Source: Acetobacterium woodii
GTDB taxonomy: Bacteria > Bacillota > Clostridia > Eubacteriales > Eubacteriaceae
NCBI GenBank assembly: GCA_016213825.1
Contig: JACQZP010000014.1
Span: forward strand, 1-46,723
DNA: 46,723 bases
Direction: 5' to 3'
The notes beneath the pieces were generated by a model. That model was not told where the DNA came from and did no database searches. It worked only from the letters and a program-made list of their open reading frames with translations. A program made the position numbers and the translations under genes. Positions 18,840 through 37,119 of the stretch are shown here, piece by piece; the first letter of the stretch is position 1; every line of letters begins with the position of its first letter.

Positions 18840-19592
18840 TTATAGATCCTCTTTTATCTTTTTCATCACTTTCTTTTCAATCCGGGATACGGTCATCTGC
18901 GATTTATTAATATACTCCGCCACTTCTTTTTGCGTTTTTCCACGGAAAAACCGCTGCTCCACAATAATTCGTTCGACCGGATTAAGCGCTTGAATTTTTT
19001 GCTTTAACAGATCAATGTTTTCCACATTTTCCATGTTATTATCCAGGTTTCCCAATAGATCCATCAAACTGACTTCCTGGCCATCCTGATTGCTTTCATA
19101 TTCCATTGATAATGATTTCGGATAATAGGCATTGCTGCTTTCCATGGCTTTGATGATGCTTTCTTCAGATATTTCGAGATAGCAGGCAATTTCTGATATG
19201 GTTGGTGAACGCATCAGTTTATGTTCCAGAGTTGTCCGGGTTTGGTTAATCTCCCGATTGAGATCCTGAACCTTCCTGGGAATCCGTATCAACCATTCAC
19301 GATCTCGGTAATAACGCTTTATTTCTCCAATAATTGTCGGTGTGGCAAAGGTGTCAAACTCATACCCCCGACTGACATCAAATCGTTCCACCGCATACAT
19401 TAAACCCAAACAAGCGACTTGAAAGATATCTTCATTATCCCCGCTTTTATGTCCATATTTTCGTGAGAGAATTTTTGGTATATAAAGATAGTTTTCAATT
19501 ATTTGATCCCGTAATTCACGATCCCTGGTTTCTTCGTACTCGGCAAATAACTTTTTGACATCTTCTTTACTAATTTTCCGCTCATACTTCAT
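18840..19592 (-). CDS. sigB: SigB/SigF-family RNA polymerase sigma factor
   Basis: The 250-residue protein has sigma-70 regions 2, 3 and 4: DIFQVACLGLMYAVERFD and FATPTIIGEIKRYYRD (region 2), LEHKLMRSPTISEIACYLEI (region 3), and NPVERIIVEQRFFRGKTQKEVAEYINKSQMTVSRIEKK (region 4 helix-turn-helix). The IPRKVQDL segment after region 2 is typical of the SigB/SigF/SigG group. The start overlaps the rsbW-like gene by 11 bp. With rsbV and rsbW directly upstream it forms a partner-switching module. I favour general-stress SigB over sporulation SigF because YtxH/DUF948 stress genes precede it and no other sporulation gene is near; the module alone cannot prove it. Confidence 0.85.
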   Translation of the reverse strand: MKYERKISKEDVKKLFAEYEETRDRELRDQIIENYLYIPKILSRKYGHKSGDNEDIFQVACLGLMYAVERFDVSRGYEFDTFATPTIIGEIKRYYRDREWLIRIPRKVQDLNREINQTRTTLEHKLMRSPTISEIACYLEISEESIIKAMESSNAYYPKSLSMEYESNQDGQEVSLMDLLGNLDNNMENVENIDLLKQKIQALNPVERIIVEQRFFRGKTQKEVAEYINKSQMTVSRIEKKVMKKIKEDL

Positions 19593-26606: not shown

Positions 26607-26638
26607 AAAAAAGAAGTTCCTGGGTAAAGGAACTTCTT
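26607..26638 (-). terminator. intrinsic terminator after the octad-repeat protein gene
   Basis: Stem AAGAAGTTCC/GGAACTTCTT (26611-26620 and 26629-26638) followed on the minus strand by TTTTTT (26607-26612). It lies just after the stop codon of the helix protein gene. Confidence 0.85.
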
Positions 26639-26643
26639 GATTT

Positions 26644-28050
26644 TTATAACAGATGAAATGGCAACTCTTTTTCTTTTTTTGCTTTCTTCGCCTGCTCTTT
26701 TGCGTTTATGGCTTTCTGTCGTTTTTCAGCTAATTCTGCGCGAACTTTATTTTCTCTGGCAATTGCTCGTTCAATTGCCTTTGAAGTAATTTCTTCCAGC
26801 TCCTTAGCCTTTCTTTTGATTTCTTTTCTGAGATGATCTTCTACTTCCAGTTTGTTTTTTTCTTTGTTATCTGCTTCTTGCTTTCGTGCAATTTCTATTT
26901 TCTTTGTTTCTTCTTGTTCAGTTTTTAACTTGGCTGTTATTTCGGCCTTTTTCTTAGCCTCAATTTCAGCTCTTTTTTTCGCTTCTGCTTGTTTGCTTGC
27001 TTCTTCAATTACTCGACGATCTTCCGCTGCTTTTACTAAAGCTTCTGCATCGTCCTGAACTTTTTTATTAACTTTATCGACTAATATTTTAGATTTTTCT
27101 GCTACTTCTTTTCTTTTTGCTAATATTTCTGCATCATTTTGTACTTTTAAATGAACTTTTTCCAGTAGCAATTTAGATTTTTGGGCTACAGCTTTCGCTT
27201 TTTTATCAGCTTCAGCTTTTGCCTCAGCTACTTTTAACATAAGTTCTTTTTCTTTTCGTTCTGCCGCTGCCAGCTCAGTTTTTATTTTAGCTTCCGCCTC
27301 TTCTTTTGCCTTGACTTCTGCTGCGGCTCTCGCGGTGGCTTCTTCCTTGGCCTTCGCTTCTGCCTCTTTCTTCGCTTTCGCTTCTGCCTTTGCTTTGGCT
27401 TCCGCTTCCTTCTTGGCTTTCGCATCAGCTTCTGCCTTCGCTTTGGCTTCCGCTTCTTTTTTGGCTTTCGCTTCTGCTTCTGCCTTCGCTTTGGCTTCTG
27501 CTTCTGCCTTCGCTTTGGCTTCTGCTTTCGTTTTGGCTTCCGCTTCTGCCTTCGCTTTGGCTTCTGCTTCTGCTTTCGCTTTGGCTTCCGCTTCTGCTTT
27601 CGCTTTGACTTCCGCTTCTGCCTTTGCTTTGGTTTCCGCTTCTTTTTTGGCTTTCGCATCTGCTTCTGCCTTTGCTTTGGCTTCCGCTTCTTTTTTGGCT
27701 TTCGCTTCTGCTTCTGCCTTTGCTTTGGTTTCCGCTTCTTTTTTGGCTTTCGCATCTGCTTCTGCCTTCGCTTTGGCTTCCGCTTCTTTTTTGGCTTTCG
27801 CTTCTGCTTCTGCCTTCGCTCTGGCTTCCGCTTCTTTATTTTCAGCTTTGCTCGTTTCCTGGTGATTGTTGTCGCTCAAATCTTCGGCACTTTCATCTTT
27901 ACCCGTGATCACTCTACCAACCTTTTTAATAAAATCATCCAGTTTTCCCACTTCTTCATTCCCCACTTCACTTGAATTCGCTGTATCCAAAGTATTTTGA
28001 ATAGTCGTGTCTTTTATTAATTGTGATTTAGGTTTACTTTTACGAGCCAT
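26644..28050 (-). CDS. Ala/Lys/Glu octad-repeat long-helix protein (function unknown)
   Basis: The 468-residue protein has no signal peptide or membrane helix. Residues 1-72 are basic, then a mixed polar linker. Residues about 73-250 are octads of the AEAEAKAK type with KK variants. Alanine fills every second position, and E and K are placed four residues apart, which favours i/i+4 salt bridges and a stable single alpha-helix rather than a heptad coiled coil. Residues 288-343 are a tandem 28-residue duplication (VA.KSK.L..KV..KVQ.DAE). The tail is K/E/R-rich and ends ELPFHLL. The start at 28050 follows AAGGAG; a much longer upstream frame lacks a ribosome site and would cross the inverted repeats. 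It lies directly downstream of the pdu operon terminator on the same strand, so a link to the microcompartment is possible but unproven. TolA-like proteins look similar but carry a membrane anchor. Confidence 0.7.
   Translation of the reverse strand: MARKSKPKSQLIKDTTIQNTLDTANSSEVGNEEVGKLDDFIKKVGRVITGKDESAEDLSDNNHQETSKAENKEAEARAKAEAEAKAKKEAEAKAKAEADAKAKKEAETKAKAEAEAKAKKEAEAKAKAEADAKAKKEAETKAKAEAEVKAKAEAEAKAKAEAEAKAKAEAEAKTKAEAKAKAEAEAKAKAEAEAKAKKEAEAKAKAEADAKAKKEAEAKAKAEAKAKKEAEAKAKEEATARAAAEVKAKEEAEAKIKTELAAAERKEKELMLKVAEAKAEADKKAKAVAQKSKLLLEKVHLKVQNDAEILAKRKEVAEKSKILVDKVNKKVQDDAEALVKAAEDRRVIEEASKQAEAKKRAEIEAKKKAEITAKLKTEQEETKKIEIARKQEADNKEKNKLEVEDHLRKEIKRKAKELEEITSKAIERAIARENKVRAELAEKRQKAINAKEQAKKAKKEKELPFHLL
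27022..27189 (-). repeat. tandem 84-bp duplication in the long-helix gene
   Basis: Two adjacent copies, 27106-27189 and 27022-27105, each encode 28 residues starting VA(Q/E)KSK(L/I)L and ending near A.A/KRKE. They differ at about a third of positions, so they are older than the octad array. Confidence 0.75.
27300..27834 (-). repeat. 24-bp octad-coding repeat array
   Basis: The coding strand repeats GCN-GAR-GCN-GAR-GCN-AAR-GCN-AAR units of 24 bp, often paired into 48-bp higher-order units with a KK and D/T variants. Such arrays expand and contract easily by slippage. The mirror strand reads as a false hydrophobic frame. Confidence 0.85.
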
Positions 28051-28079: not shown

Positions 28080-28124
28080 TTCTATTTTTTATAAATGGCC
28101 TTGGAGCATTTATAAAAAATAGAA
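28080..28124. repeat. perfect 18-bp inverted repeat upstream of the long-helix gene
   Basis: Left arm 28080-28097 and right arm 28107-28124 are exact reverse complements (TTCTATTTTTTATAAATG and its partner) around a nine-base loop. It begins 30 bp upstream of the start codon, so it would be a leader hairpin, an operator, or part of the promoter (TATAAA is in one arm). Confidence 0.8.
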
Positions 28125-28131
28125 ATCTTGT

Positions 28132-28171
28132 GTATAAAAAACAAATGACCGAAGCCATTTGTCTTTTATAC
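28132..28171 (-). terminator. intrinsic terminator of the pdu operon
   Basis: On the minus strand ACAAATG-GCttcgGT-CATTTGT forms a stem with a TTCG-type loop, followed by TTTTTT. Outer bases GTATAAAA/TTTTATAC extend the dyad. It lies about 20 bp after the pduT-like stop and separates the microcompartment operon from the helix protein gene. Confidence 0.75.
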
Positions 28172-28192
28172 ATTTTAATTTTTAATCTTGGG

Positions 28193-28741
28193 TTAAAATA
28201 GGATCTTTTGAATATCCTTATGTGGAGAAGCAATAACTGAATAACTCGTAATGAGGTTCGATTCTGCCATCTCGTTTTGAGCTGTTTGAATAGCCATTTT
28301 AACAGAAGATATTTCTCCAGTGATTAATACAAAGCCTTTACCACCCAAGCCTCTAGCAATTCGAATTTCAAGGAGTTCTACGCTTGATGCTTTCGCACAA
28401 ATATCTCCGATCAAAATTGAAGAGATTGCATTAATCGTTTCAACAATACCAAGAGATTTCACATCGCCAATTTCACCTGCACCTAACATGGCCGGTAAAA
28501 CATCAGGGTGAATATTTGGTATAACGTGTGACTCTAACATATGGATACCACCCACATGTGCCCCATTCTTTATTGATGCTTCGACGGCACCCACATCTCC
28601 AGCAATAATACTAACGTATTTTCCTGGACATAAGGGTGATGCCATCAGCAGCTCAACATTTCCGGATTTCAGCATTTCATCAGTGGATTCTATACCAACT
28701 GGAATGCTCTTAAATTCCATAAAACCAACTGCTTTTTTCAA
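28193..28741 (-). CDS. pduT: tandem-BMC shell protein, PduT-like
   Basis: The 182-residue protein has two BMC domains in tandem (AVGFMEFKSIPVGIESTDEML... and SLGIVETINAISSILIGD...), so it forms pseudohexameric trimers in the shell facet. Cys38 in PLCPGK corresponds to the cysteine that holds the pore [4Fe-4S] cluster in PduT (family knowledge), pointing to electron transfer across the shell, plausibly with PduS. The start codon is TTG with only a weak ribosome site. It is the last gene of the operon, 62 bp after the membrane protein gene. Confidence 0.88.
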   Translation of the reverse strand: MKKAVGFMEFKSIPVGIESTDEMLKSGNVELLMASPLCPGKYVSIIAGDVGAVEASIKNGAHVGGIHMLESHVIPNIHPDVLPAMLGAGEIGDVKSLGIVETINAISSILIGDICAKASSVELLEIRIARGLGGKGFVLITGEISSVKMAIQTAQNEMAESNLITSYSVIASPHKDIQKILF

Positions 28742-28803: not shown

Positions 28804-29760
28804 TTAAACTAAAATTAATCCGCCTAAAATTGTAAAGTTGATAAACTGAGTAATAAAGATTGTTACGGCAGGAGGGTCAATATGGGTATCGCAATGACTA
28901 TTAAGTGTTTTTGCAGCCCATTCGCCTACAAACGCTGTGAACATACCTGTAATCATACCACCGATGATGGCAGCAAATGGATTTAAGGTAGCACTGAACA
29001 TTAATACAGCTGTAGATCCTGAAGGTAAAACGATGTGATGCCATCCTTCAAATGCACAACCACACATGATCAAGATCAAAGAGAAAGCAGCGACGCCAAA
29101 ACCAATTACTGGTACCATTGTGAACAGGTAAGCAGCTTCTTCGCTTCCGCCAACAAGACCTAATGTTCCTAAAGTAGCTGCAACACCACCGATAAGGATA
29201 CCAATAGAAGCACCATAGGTAAGTACAAAACCTAAACGACTACCAGTAGAGATCCATTCTCTTTTTTCACCAGCCGGTGTTTTTCCTGTAAGGCCAGTTT
29301 TGCCGAAGACTAAACGAGTGATAATACCAGAAAGCATTACTGTACAAGCAACGGTATCGGTCCAACCAGCTGCTCCATCACCAAGAATGCCGTTAAAAAT
29401 AATTGGTCCTACTAATGGTCCAACAATGTATTGGATTAGGAAACCAACCATACCGAAGATACCACCAACGATCAATACCATCGGATCGCCGAATTTTACA
29501 AGTGGAGTAACGATATCTTGTCCATTTTCAATATGATTTCTTGTCATTGCAAACGCAGCACCGGCAACAGCACCAGCGAAGGCAATATGTGGTCCAAACC
29601 ATGAACCAAAACTAACGATACCGATTGCTGGAGCACCATTTGCACCACCCATGATTGCCGCTAAAACGGTTAAACCGGTGAAAACAAAGGCTGTGATCCC
29701 GCCCATAAATGTGGCTAATACGCCACCGCCGAATGCGGCGATTAACATTGTAAAGTCCAT
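28804..29760 (-). CDS. polytopic membrane protein of the pdu operon (function unknown)
   Basis: The 318-residue protein is very hydrophobic and Gly-rich, with about eight or nine predicted membrane segments. Candidate conserved patches are GSWFGPHIAFAG, CGCAFEGWHHIVLPSGST and the C-terminal NSHCDTHIDPPAVT, which hold several Cys and His. I do not recognise a named transporter family and it is not like PduF (an aquaglyceroporin). Its place between pduS and pduT and its strong ribosome site (AAGGGGGAT) show it belongs to the operon. It may transport propanediol, an alcohol or acid product, or a cobalamin-related compound, or act as a membrane partner of the RnfC-like PduS. All of these are inference. 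Confidence 0.75.
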   Translation of the reverse strand: MDFTMLIAAFGGGVLATFMGGITAFVFTGLTVLAAIMGGANGAPAIGIVSFGSWFGPHIAFAGAVAGAAFAMTRNHIENGQDIVTPLVKFGDPMVLIVGGIFGMVGFLIQYIVGPLVGPIIFNGILGDGAAGWTDTVACTVMLSGIITRLVFGKTGLTGKTPAGEKREWISTGSRLGFVLTYGASIGILIGGVAATLGTLGLVGGSEEAAYLFTMVPVIGFGVAAFSLILIMCGCAFEGWHHIVLPSGSTAVLMFSATLNPFAAIIGGMITGMFTAFVGEWAAKTLNSHCDTHIDPPAVTIFITQFINFTILGGLILV

Positions 29761-35188: not shown

Positions 35189-36013
35189 TTACCTTTGACA
35201 ATTAAAGGCGATCCCTAAGGGTGTTACCAATAATGGTTCTACTGGTTTAATGGTTTTGATGCCTGTTTCATCTTCAAATATTTTTTCAAAATCATCAAAG
35301 ACACACGCCCCGCCAACCACATAAATAACATCAACATCGTACCCGACGACAAATCGATTAACGATGGACGCCATCTTCTGTACAACGGGTTTGATTATTG
35401 GAAATATTTTCTTTTGCGATTCGTTCTTTTTAAGTTCCTCTGCTTCTTCAAAGCTTATGTGATGAAAACCTGCCAGTACCAGACTCATATGGGTCCCTCC
35501 GGTTGCTTCATCGGCTGTGAAAATAACTTCACCATCTTTAAGAATACTGATTCCGGTGGTTCCGCCACCAACATCTACAACGGCTCCATTTTGAATACCC
35601 AAAACAGTTGCTGCTGCAGTTGGTTCATCAACGACATTTGTAACAACAAAGTCGGCTGAGTCAACTACGTTGGAAATAATCTTTGTATTCCCTGCCAAGA
35701 TACCGGGAGGAATGGCTGTGGCCGCTTTGGCATATGACAAATCAATGCCCAGTATCCCCTCAACCTCACCTTTAAGTTTTCGTACAATTTGGCTCGCTCC
35801 GAGATAGTCGACGACAATTCCATCGCGCACCACTGACGCACCTTGAGTAGCTCCAGCAATGGGACGATTATTCTCATCTACCACTGCGATGACAATATTT
35901 GCAGTACCAAGATCCACGCCAACTTTCAGCTCACCAGTGTAAGCATTGGCCTTTTTTCCTCGAATTAATTCTGCAAATTCCAATATTGCGTCGTTACCAG
36001 ATTTCCAATCCAT
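35189..36013 (-). CDS. eutJ: EutJ-family Hsp70-like ATPase
   Basis: The 274-residue protein has the actin/Hsp70 fold signatures: phosphate-1 VGVDLGTANIVIAVVDE, a phosphate-2 GAVVDVGGGTTGISI and an adenosine-type VVGGACVFDDFE. This is the EutJ family, a presumed chaperone of ethanolamine microcompartments whose exact client is unknown. Its presence in a pdu operon suggests a chaperone role for shell or cargo assembly, separate from the PduGH reactivase. It follows pduL by 4 bp and its ATG follows AGGTG. Confidence 0.88.
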   Translation of the reverse strand: MDWKSGNDAILEFAELIRGKKANAYTGELKVGVDLGTANIVIAVVDENNRPIAGATQGASVVRDGIVVDYLGASQIVRKLKGEVEGILGIDLSYAKAATAIPPGILAGNTKIISNVVDSADFVVTNVVDEPTAAATVLGIQNGAVVDVGGGTTGISILKDGEVIFTADEATGGTHMSLVLAGFHHISFEEAEELKKNESQKKIFPIIKPVVQKMASIVNRFVVGYDVDVIYVVGGACVFDDFEKIFEDETGIKTIKPVEPLLVTPLGIAFNCQR

Positions 36014-36732: not shown

Positions 36733-37119
36733 TTACTCTTCAGTAATCTCTTCACTTATTTCTTCTGCTGGTTCTTCATTTTTTTCTTCAATGTCAACTT
36801 CAGCTTTTGGCTCAACCGGTGGCGTATAACCCACTGTTTGACTGTTATAAATTAATTTGTCAATGCCTTCACTGGGCCGGGCAATCACTTTAGTTCCCCA
36901 AACGCCCCGACCTTTAGCACAAGCAGCCGTAGCAGCTTCAACCGCGGCTTTTACAGCACCGACATCTCCAGCCACTTTAATGGTGGACATGCCATCGCCT
37001 TTACAGGCTTCATAGCCAATCAGTCTTACATTTGCTGACTTGACCGCCGCATCGGCAGCTTCAATAGCTGTGGCCAACCCGATAGCTTCAATTAGGCCGA
37101 TGGCCTCTCCTCTATTCAA
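36733..37119 (-). CDS. BMC-H shell protein with acidic C-terminal tail (PduJ/PduK-like)
   Basis: The 128-residue protein has a standard single BMC domain (EAIGLIEAIGLATAIEAADAAVKSANVRL..., [13 protein letters not shown]). A tail of about 30 residues follows, rich in Glu and Pro. Salmonella PduK also has an extension, but with cysteines for an iron-sulfur site, and none is present in this tail. The start is TTG after GAGGGG. It takes the pduJ/pduK position after pduH. Confidence 0.85.
   Translation of the reverse strand: MNRGEAIGLIEAIGLATAIEAADAAVKSANVRLIGYEACKGDGMSTIKVAGDVGAVKAAVEAATAACAKGRGVWGTKVIARPSEGIDKLIYNSQTVGYTPPVEPKAEVDIEEKNEEPAEEISEEITEE

Follow-up and report, generated by a model that had tools for sequence, protein, structure and literature searches.

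What does a long, repeat-rich protein do directly behind the shell gene pduT, and does it belong to the Pdu microcompartment? The window (the whole 46,723-nucleotide stretch of Acetobacterium woodii DNA analysed here) encodes such a protein of 468 residues. We read it, with a probability of roughly 0.8, as an McdB-like adaptor of the Pdu microcompartment that was kept when its dedicated ParA ATPase was lost in the window's genus (presumed Acetobacterium). Papers are cited by PMC number, from excerpts of their text.

The gene behind pduT and its product

The open reading frame at 26644–28050 starts with ATG at 28050, with AGGAG six bases upstream, and is a real gene with a ribosome site. It and its surroundings comprise the following features.

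26611..26638, minus strand: terminator-like hairpin behind the charged-helix gene, found on both strands (hairpin prediction)
26644..28050, minus strand: gene for the probable McdB-like charged-helix protein, 468 aa (open reading frame, matches in relatives)
26647..26670, minus strand: C-terminal tail KELPFHLL, presumed shell-binding motif and counterpart of (E/D)LPxYLL (alignment, analogy with the McdB tail in the excerpts of PMC11321042)
27338..27836, minus strand: tandem octad array of 24-bp/48-bp repeats, predicted long charged helix whose length differs from strain to strain (repeat finding, charge pattern, AlphaFold)
27901..27954, minus strand: conserved segment, residues 33–50, around EVGKLDDFIKKVGRVITG (alignment, dN/dS)
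28012..28050, minus strand: conserved basic head, residues 1–13 (MARKSKPKSQLIK), presumed ParA-contact end (alignment, dN/dS)
28080..28124, minus strand: hairpin 2, a long near-perfect inverted repeat before the ribosome site (folding, genome search, alignment)
28131..28172, minus strand: hairpin 1 behind pduT, terminator-like with a UUCG loop (folding, alignment)
28193..28741, minus strand: pduT, BMC-domain shell protein, upstream neighbour in genomes with the charged-helix protein (domain matches, locus comparison)

The head is hydrophilic and basic (N-terminus MARKSKPK), with a net charge of +3 over residues 1–22 (+1 to +10 in 15 ParA-linked relatives). An earlier sequence-only reading of this DNA had described the repeats; the conserved head, the conserved tail and the second upstream hairpin are all absent from it, and the dedicated ParA gene, being missing from the window, was invisible to it. 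Its count of about 22 octads agrees with Tandem Repeats Finder, which reports period 24 in 21.3 copies over 27338–27836 and period 48 in 9.9 copies with 87% matches. The four-residue spacing of Glu and Lys that it described is likewise a strong signal: charge autocorrelation over residues 71–280 is −0.42 at i+4 and +0.39 at i+8 (period 8), and a simple salt-bridge score of 0.42 lies beyond all 2000 shuffles (0.00 ± 0.04, highest 0.14). The same stretch is 40% Ala and 3.8% LIVMFYW, residues 281–460 being less extreme (19%). A coiled coil was considered and rejected, the heptad signal being weak in residues 71–280 (p 0.035) and non-significant in four stretches of 281–460. From the single sequence, AlphaFold places helices at 8–25, 32–49, 59–178, 183–309 and 314–462 (mean pLDDT 75, pTM 0.23); between residues 59 and 462 the helix is nearly continuous, interrupted twice, and confidence is moderate. 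The middle region is accordingly predicted, not proven, to form long single helices.

TolA and the ER/K-type single alpha-helix proteins are built from Ala/Lys/Glu repeats with opposite charges at i/i+4. The likeness of the window protein to them is compositional, and no membrane anchor was seen. The view that it is not a TolA stands: the NCBIfam match to TIGR02794 (41.3 bits, cut-off 59.45) sits in the low-complexity part of a protein whose N-terminus is hydrophilic. A relation to MSCRAMMs was also set aside, the matches being compositional and below cut-offs. No Pfam family was matched, DNA-binding families included.

ParA and its probable adaptor in other genera of the family

Of 19 same-genus genomes, 17 (that of the window among them) have a match at E 1.2e-15 or lower when the first 67 residues serve as the query. 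Each of the 17 copies directly follows pduT (of which G002 shows just the final part as a called open reading frame), and dnaX comes next in every one of the 16 readable loci; the G005 locus, truncated by its contig end, can be read on the pduT side only. Because dnaX is so constantly the next gene, position within the genus is weak evidence for a link to pdu, and one could argue that the protein is unrelated to the operon and sits behind pduT merely through common chromosome order. The wider family makes this very improbable. Four genomes of other genera (G019–G022) keep a relative behind pduT and ParA though dnaX is not the next gene, and the adaptor was not found where a pdu-type pduT was not found.

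The arrangement in G022, a member of another genus, is pduT, then a ParA ATPase gene, then at the very next base a gene for a 326-residue protein with the head MARKSKLKSELK and the tail HELPDYLL. Relatives share this anatomy: a basic head (MARKSK.KS), a variable charged middle and an (E/D)LPxYLL tail. Of 40 family genomes, 16 have a pdu-type ParA (E ≤ 1e-60), none of them among the 19 of the window's genus and all among the 21 others, at 55–100% identity to that of G022, and named records among its bearers include Eubacterium callanderi, E. barkeri, E. aggregans, Pseudoramibacter porci and P. alactolyticus. The adaptor starts −1 to +3 nt from the ParA stop in 15 of these 16; in the last, G051, the contig ends there with the adaptor head still visible. 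Upstream of ParA lies pduT in all 16 loci, recognised from its 3′ end in the upstream sequence of G048, G050, G052 and G053. Adaptor and ParA are thus side by side in 16 of 16 ParA-bearing relatives and not so in the window and 15 further loci, where pduT lies on one side and dnaX on the other. Altogether, the protein lies behind pduT in each of the 33 family genomes in which it was found, directly in 17 and behind ParA in 16, and in these searches no match away from BMC loci rises above chance level. This supports the microcompartment link suggested from the sequence; of the roles then proposed, that of a positioning scaffold gains from the pairing of the relatives with a ParA ATPase.

The ParA itself has a deviant Walker A box with the signature lysine (KGGCGKTT, invariant in all five aligned) and matches Pfam AAA_31 at 2e-48. 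Its best PDB matches are ParA (8ray, 4e-44), Soj (6iub, 3.9e-40) and McdA (6noo, 9.8e-18), placing it nearer to Soj than to McdA 6noo. In a tree for which 13 of 15 Soj-type loci gave a row, a 100/100 branch splits the pdu ParAs, together with one Vallitalea protein, from the 13 Soj-type proteins; without Vallitalea the pdu group has a support of 75/88. A wider motif scan returned 16 ParA loci (12 from this family, one from Vallitalea and three from Hymenobacter, at 29%), and as it needs exact short motifs, more distant pairs could escape it. The Vallitalea ParA, from a metagenome-assembled genome (L128 6001–6759), is 62% identical and has the Walker box KGGCAKTT; no pdu genes or adaptor were seen beside it at that locus.

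How securely can the orphan be joined to these adaptors? The window head finds one match in G022, at the adaptor, with E 0.36, and the G022 head finds one in the window genome (G000), at the window gene, with E 0.12; the G022 head also matches G047 (3.7e-19) and G020 (5.5e-5). Head and tail are the parts most clearly in common between the genera in alignment, and the segment at residues 33–50 is partly shared with the Eubacterium-type relatives (EVGxxDDxxKK). With cross-genus E-values this weak, the case for common descent depends on combining head, tail and gene order, and by these three we regard the relation of the window protein to the ParA-linked adaptors as shown at the sequence level.

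Seven family genomes (G004, G018, G024, G041, G046, G054 and G055) gave no adaptor with either head and no pdu-type ParA, head matches being at chance level (E 0.09 in G024, containing a stop; E 0.19 in G046). At E ≤ 1e-20, no pduT was found in six of them, and the seventh, G018, has just a 39% copy, which belongs to another BMC locus. Six of the seven genomes are less than 90% complete, so absence there is provisional. The G018 locus (L113, contig C427) combines divergent pduT and pduS genes with methyltransferase-like and corrinoid-protein-like genes, as judged by eye; no ParA or adaptor was seen on this 4.3-kb contig.

The genus without a pdu-type ParA: leader, selection and tail

A tree of PduT, PduS and PduP, comprising 9 of 17 genus loci, 9 of 16 ParA-bearing loci and, as outgroup, the G018 locus without PduP, nests the window's genus inside ParA-bearing lineages with moderate SH-aLRT/bootstrap support (96.4/79 and 93.7/86). 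Two outer lineages, G023 and G042, have the order pduT–ParA–adaptor–dnaX, which is that of the window plus ParA. We read this as a loss of ParA from between pduT and the adaptor in the window's genus and not as a late gain elsewhere. The G042 adaptor (L110) is a 650-residue acidic protein (pI about 4.1) with head and tail of the same kind, so a complete switch of charge in the middle is possible with the ends retained.

The two hairpins between pduT and the gene (28080–28172) fold with a z score of −9.7. An alignment of 15 of the 17 genus sequences preserves both, and 5 of the 36 pairs have changed on both sides; in G002 and G009, the two outside that alignment, both hairpins are visible by eye. 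Hairpin 2 is A/U-rich, with a loop around CUCCAAGGC. It occurs at one place only in the genome by exact search, and by a 3-mismatch search whose reversed control also gave one, so a dispersed element was rejected; three sub-threshold Rfam matches were taken as chance. Six leaders before ParA in other genera gave z scores of −2.1 to −8.1. In G022, G047 and G049 one hairpin is followed by a long stem whose base is A/U-rich, the leader of G050 forms two stems weakly (z −2.06), and two clear hairpins are not seen in the pieces folded from G052 and G019. From these folds, the ParA–adaptor pair of relatives seems to be preceded by a leader of its own, and such a leader may have passed to the adaptor after the loss of ParA. 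A terminator between pduT and the gene had been held against a link to the operon. The strong terminator-like hairpin is there, but the argument built on it finds no support, because strong hairpins also stand between pduT and ParA in relatives.

Selection was gauged by pairwise Nei–Gojobori dN/dS (medians; aligned without gaps; pairs with saturated or very small dS dropped). The median is 0.07 for codons 2–13 (17 genomes, 123 of 136 pairs used), 0.36 for codons 2–22 (15 genomes, 99 of 105), 0.18 for codons 26–50 (15 genomes, 103 of 105), 0.16 for the last 22 codons (16 genomes, 78 of 120) and 0.14 for the last 90 (15 genomes, 60 of 105), values that are rough because the stretches are short and many C-terminal pairs are saturated (42 of 120 and 45 of 105 dropped). 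Judged by these ratios, the adaptor gene is under purifying selection in the window's genus. Length is another matter. The 16 complete genus proteins span 277–523 residues, and even the near-twins G000 and G010, whose other matched genes there are 96–100% identical, have versions of 468 and 520 residues, a difference of 52. A ruler, one of the roles first proposed, is therefore not what this protein is; nucleic-acid binding, another of them, is still conceivable.

The tail has changed as well. An aromatic residue stands third from the end in all 14 complete ParA-linked proteins (13 Tyr, 1 Trp) and in 4 of 16 complete proteins of the window's genus, the other 12 having His. An F, Y or W still lies within the last five residues in 14 of those 16 and is absent from two; in the PFHLL of the window protein, F sits one place before the position that is Y or W in relatives. 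That the third-from-end aromatic is mostly gone argues against an unchanged mechanism, and the fit of the tail to the shell may have changed, or weakened, after ParA loss. The eroded aromatic and the large length changes could also mark a relic, a once useful adaptor slowly decaying after ParA loss while its repeats drift. We think this improbable, given a frame open in all 17 genomes (one cut at a contig end), the dN/dS of 0.07 over the head and the conserved leader hairpins.

A possible role without a dedicated ParA

McdAB has reportedly been described at other BMCs in two papers by MacCready and colleagues. All McdBs are said in PMC8262871 to share variable-length disordered regions, biased repeats, low hydrophobicity, multivalency and a C-terminal tryptophan, and their charged N-terminus is expected to contact McdA. 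The window protein has McdB-type features in its repetitive biased composition, low hydrophobicity and variable length. Compared by published feature lists, it agrees with the carboxysome system in a partner gene directly behind ParA (in relatives), a charged N-terminus, a BMC operon, a biased low-hydrophobicity middle of variable length and a conserved C-terminal motif; it differs in belonging to a PDU metabolosome, in its tail (LPxYLL/LPFHLL, no tryptophan), in its predicted helical middle and in having no neighbouring ParA in the window's genus. As the tail KELPFHLL has no C-terminal tryptophan, we do not file the protein as a carboxysome-type McdB. Closer are the McdB-like proteins of PDU and GRM loci, whose last five residues include Y or F (PMC11321042), like those of the window protein; compared by description, an acidic residue nearby and the PDU locus are also shared, whereas the genus-wide orphan state is new here. 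The orphan alpha-McdB type 2 (PMC8262871) likewise sits in a BMC operon without a neighbouring ParA, but it is without a charged N-terminus and coexists with an mcdAB pair elsewhere; the window protein has kept its head, and no pdu-type ParA was found in its genome.

That the published orphan lost the head which ours retains counts against an McdB-like adaptor, as do the eroded tail, the weak cross-genus match and the moderate support for nesting. Nor, in the excerpts of the A. woodii study PMC7593272, is the protein named among those detected in enriched compartments; the study ends the pdu cluster at pduT, and its excerpts make no mention of the gene behind it.

Shell binding, ParA contact and a spacing function of the adaptor are inferred by analogy. 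In relatives, the adaptor would be made together with its dedicated ParA ATPase; on the McdAB model, its tail would dock on the shell while the basic head touches ParA-ATP on the nucleoid and triggers hydrolysis, so that a diffusion ratchet would spread the compartments along the nucleoid. The orphan most likely still coats the compartment surface and keeps compartments apart, with the tail as the anchor, the long charged helical middle as an expandable stalk or brush, and the head contacting something on the nucleoid. Retention of the head speaks for a binding partner of some kind there.

Could that partner be another ParA? The window genome has 16 PF13614 matches, of which only Soj, encoded beside ParB, matches the pdu ParA at E ≤ 1e-10. 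The nine proteins typed by sequence reading are Soj and eight CpaE-, CooC-, NifH- or ArsA-like proteins; outside the typing lie L092, L098, L100 and four matches without loci. Within the adaptor reading, the orphan might then use the chromosomal Soj or another ParA-like ATPase in trans, and a basic head kept and constrained without a cognate ParA speaks for this. Yet the identity of Soj to the lost ParA is just 36–37%, the head of ParB (L074) seems by eye to be different, and PMC10241942 makes the case that ParA-type ATPases sharing a cell do not interfere with one another; on balance we consider such rewiring rather unlikely.

Somewhat better placed, though still short of an even chance, is a second version of the adaptor reading in which no ParA takes part and the protein acts as a surface polymer, either a charged brush or condensate or a lysine-rich helix that binds the nucleoid directly. 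PhaF and PhaM, which bind PHB granules to the nucleoid directly, offer an analogy (PMC13052382). Growth of the middle by tandem repeats suits a polymer, as does the basic character of all 16 complete genus proteins (pI > 9.4, net charge +8 to +22), but the charge excess is modest, the ParA-linked proteins are mixed, some being equally or more basic, and no DNA-binding family was matched. Eight of the 17 genus proteins contain a motif around KSKxLxEKV that is absent from all 15 ParA-linked ones. PMC8406218 calls the role of McdB beyond McdA currently unknown, proposes that there is one and finds orphan McdBs in numerous species, so action without ParA is not far-fetched.

Other genes of the locus invite comment. 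Replacement of ParA by another operon gene was considered for a 318-residue hydrophobic membrane-like protein encoded between pduS and pduT (window 28804–29760; no Pfam or NCBIfam match) and rejected for want of correlation with ParA loss; it is present in genus loci, G022 and G019 and was not seen in G020, G021 and G023. An Actin/Hsp70-like protein of the pdu operon (35189–36013; Pfam PilM_2, MreB_Mbl, FtsA and HSP70) has matches both where ParA is present and where it is missing; PMC8262871 counts actin-like genes of BMC operons among possible positioning factors. The BMC-domain protein at 36733–37119, with a EutK-like match, is probably the PduK of A. woodii and another spacing candidate, since Salmonella PduK has been tied to preventing polar aggregation (PMC13052382). 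Elsewhere, G008 (L036 1–2504) shows two copies, at 67% and 82%, of the sigma-factor gene matching window 18840–19592, and a single match to the neighbouring anti-sigma-type gene lies between them.

A ParA with an adaptor at BMC loci is already known, and McdAB-like pairs at PDU loci are noted in PMC8262871, PMC11321042 and PMC13052382. We found no paper on a ParA with a microcompartment in Eubacterium limosum or under guessed locus tags of the gene, and none combining McdB with Eubacterium or Acetobacterium was among the matches listed. As far as the literature was searched, what is new is a family-wide pair behind pduT of which one genus has lost the ParA, the orphan there retaining its charged head and having gained a long helical array.

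The boldest reading, to which we give somewhat less than an even chance, is that a whole genus relies on an orphan McdB-like protein to position its Pdu compartments or keep them apart without a dedicated ParA, through a rewired Soj or by the repeat-expanded charged helix alone. The review PMC8262871 describes the distribution of metabolosomes within cells as unclear, and here one operon offers a natural comparison, with ParA and adaptor in Eubacterium and the adaptor alone in the window's genus; a transformation protocol exists for both A. woodii and E. callanderi (PMC12345282). An orphan with its head kept makes a McdA-independent role of McdB-like proteins testable. If Soj were used in trans, compartment partition would be tied to chromosome segregation, and were either route true, the spacing of compartments would be separable from a motor of their own.
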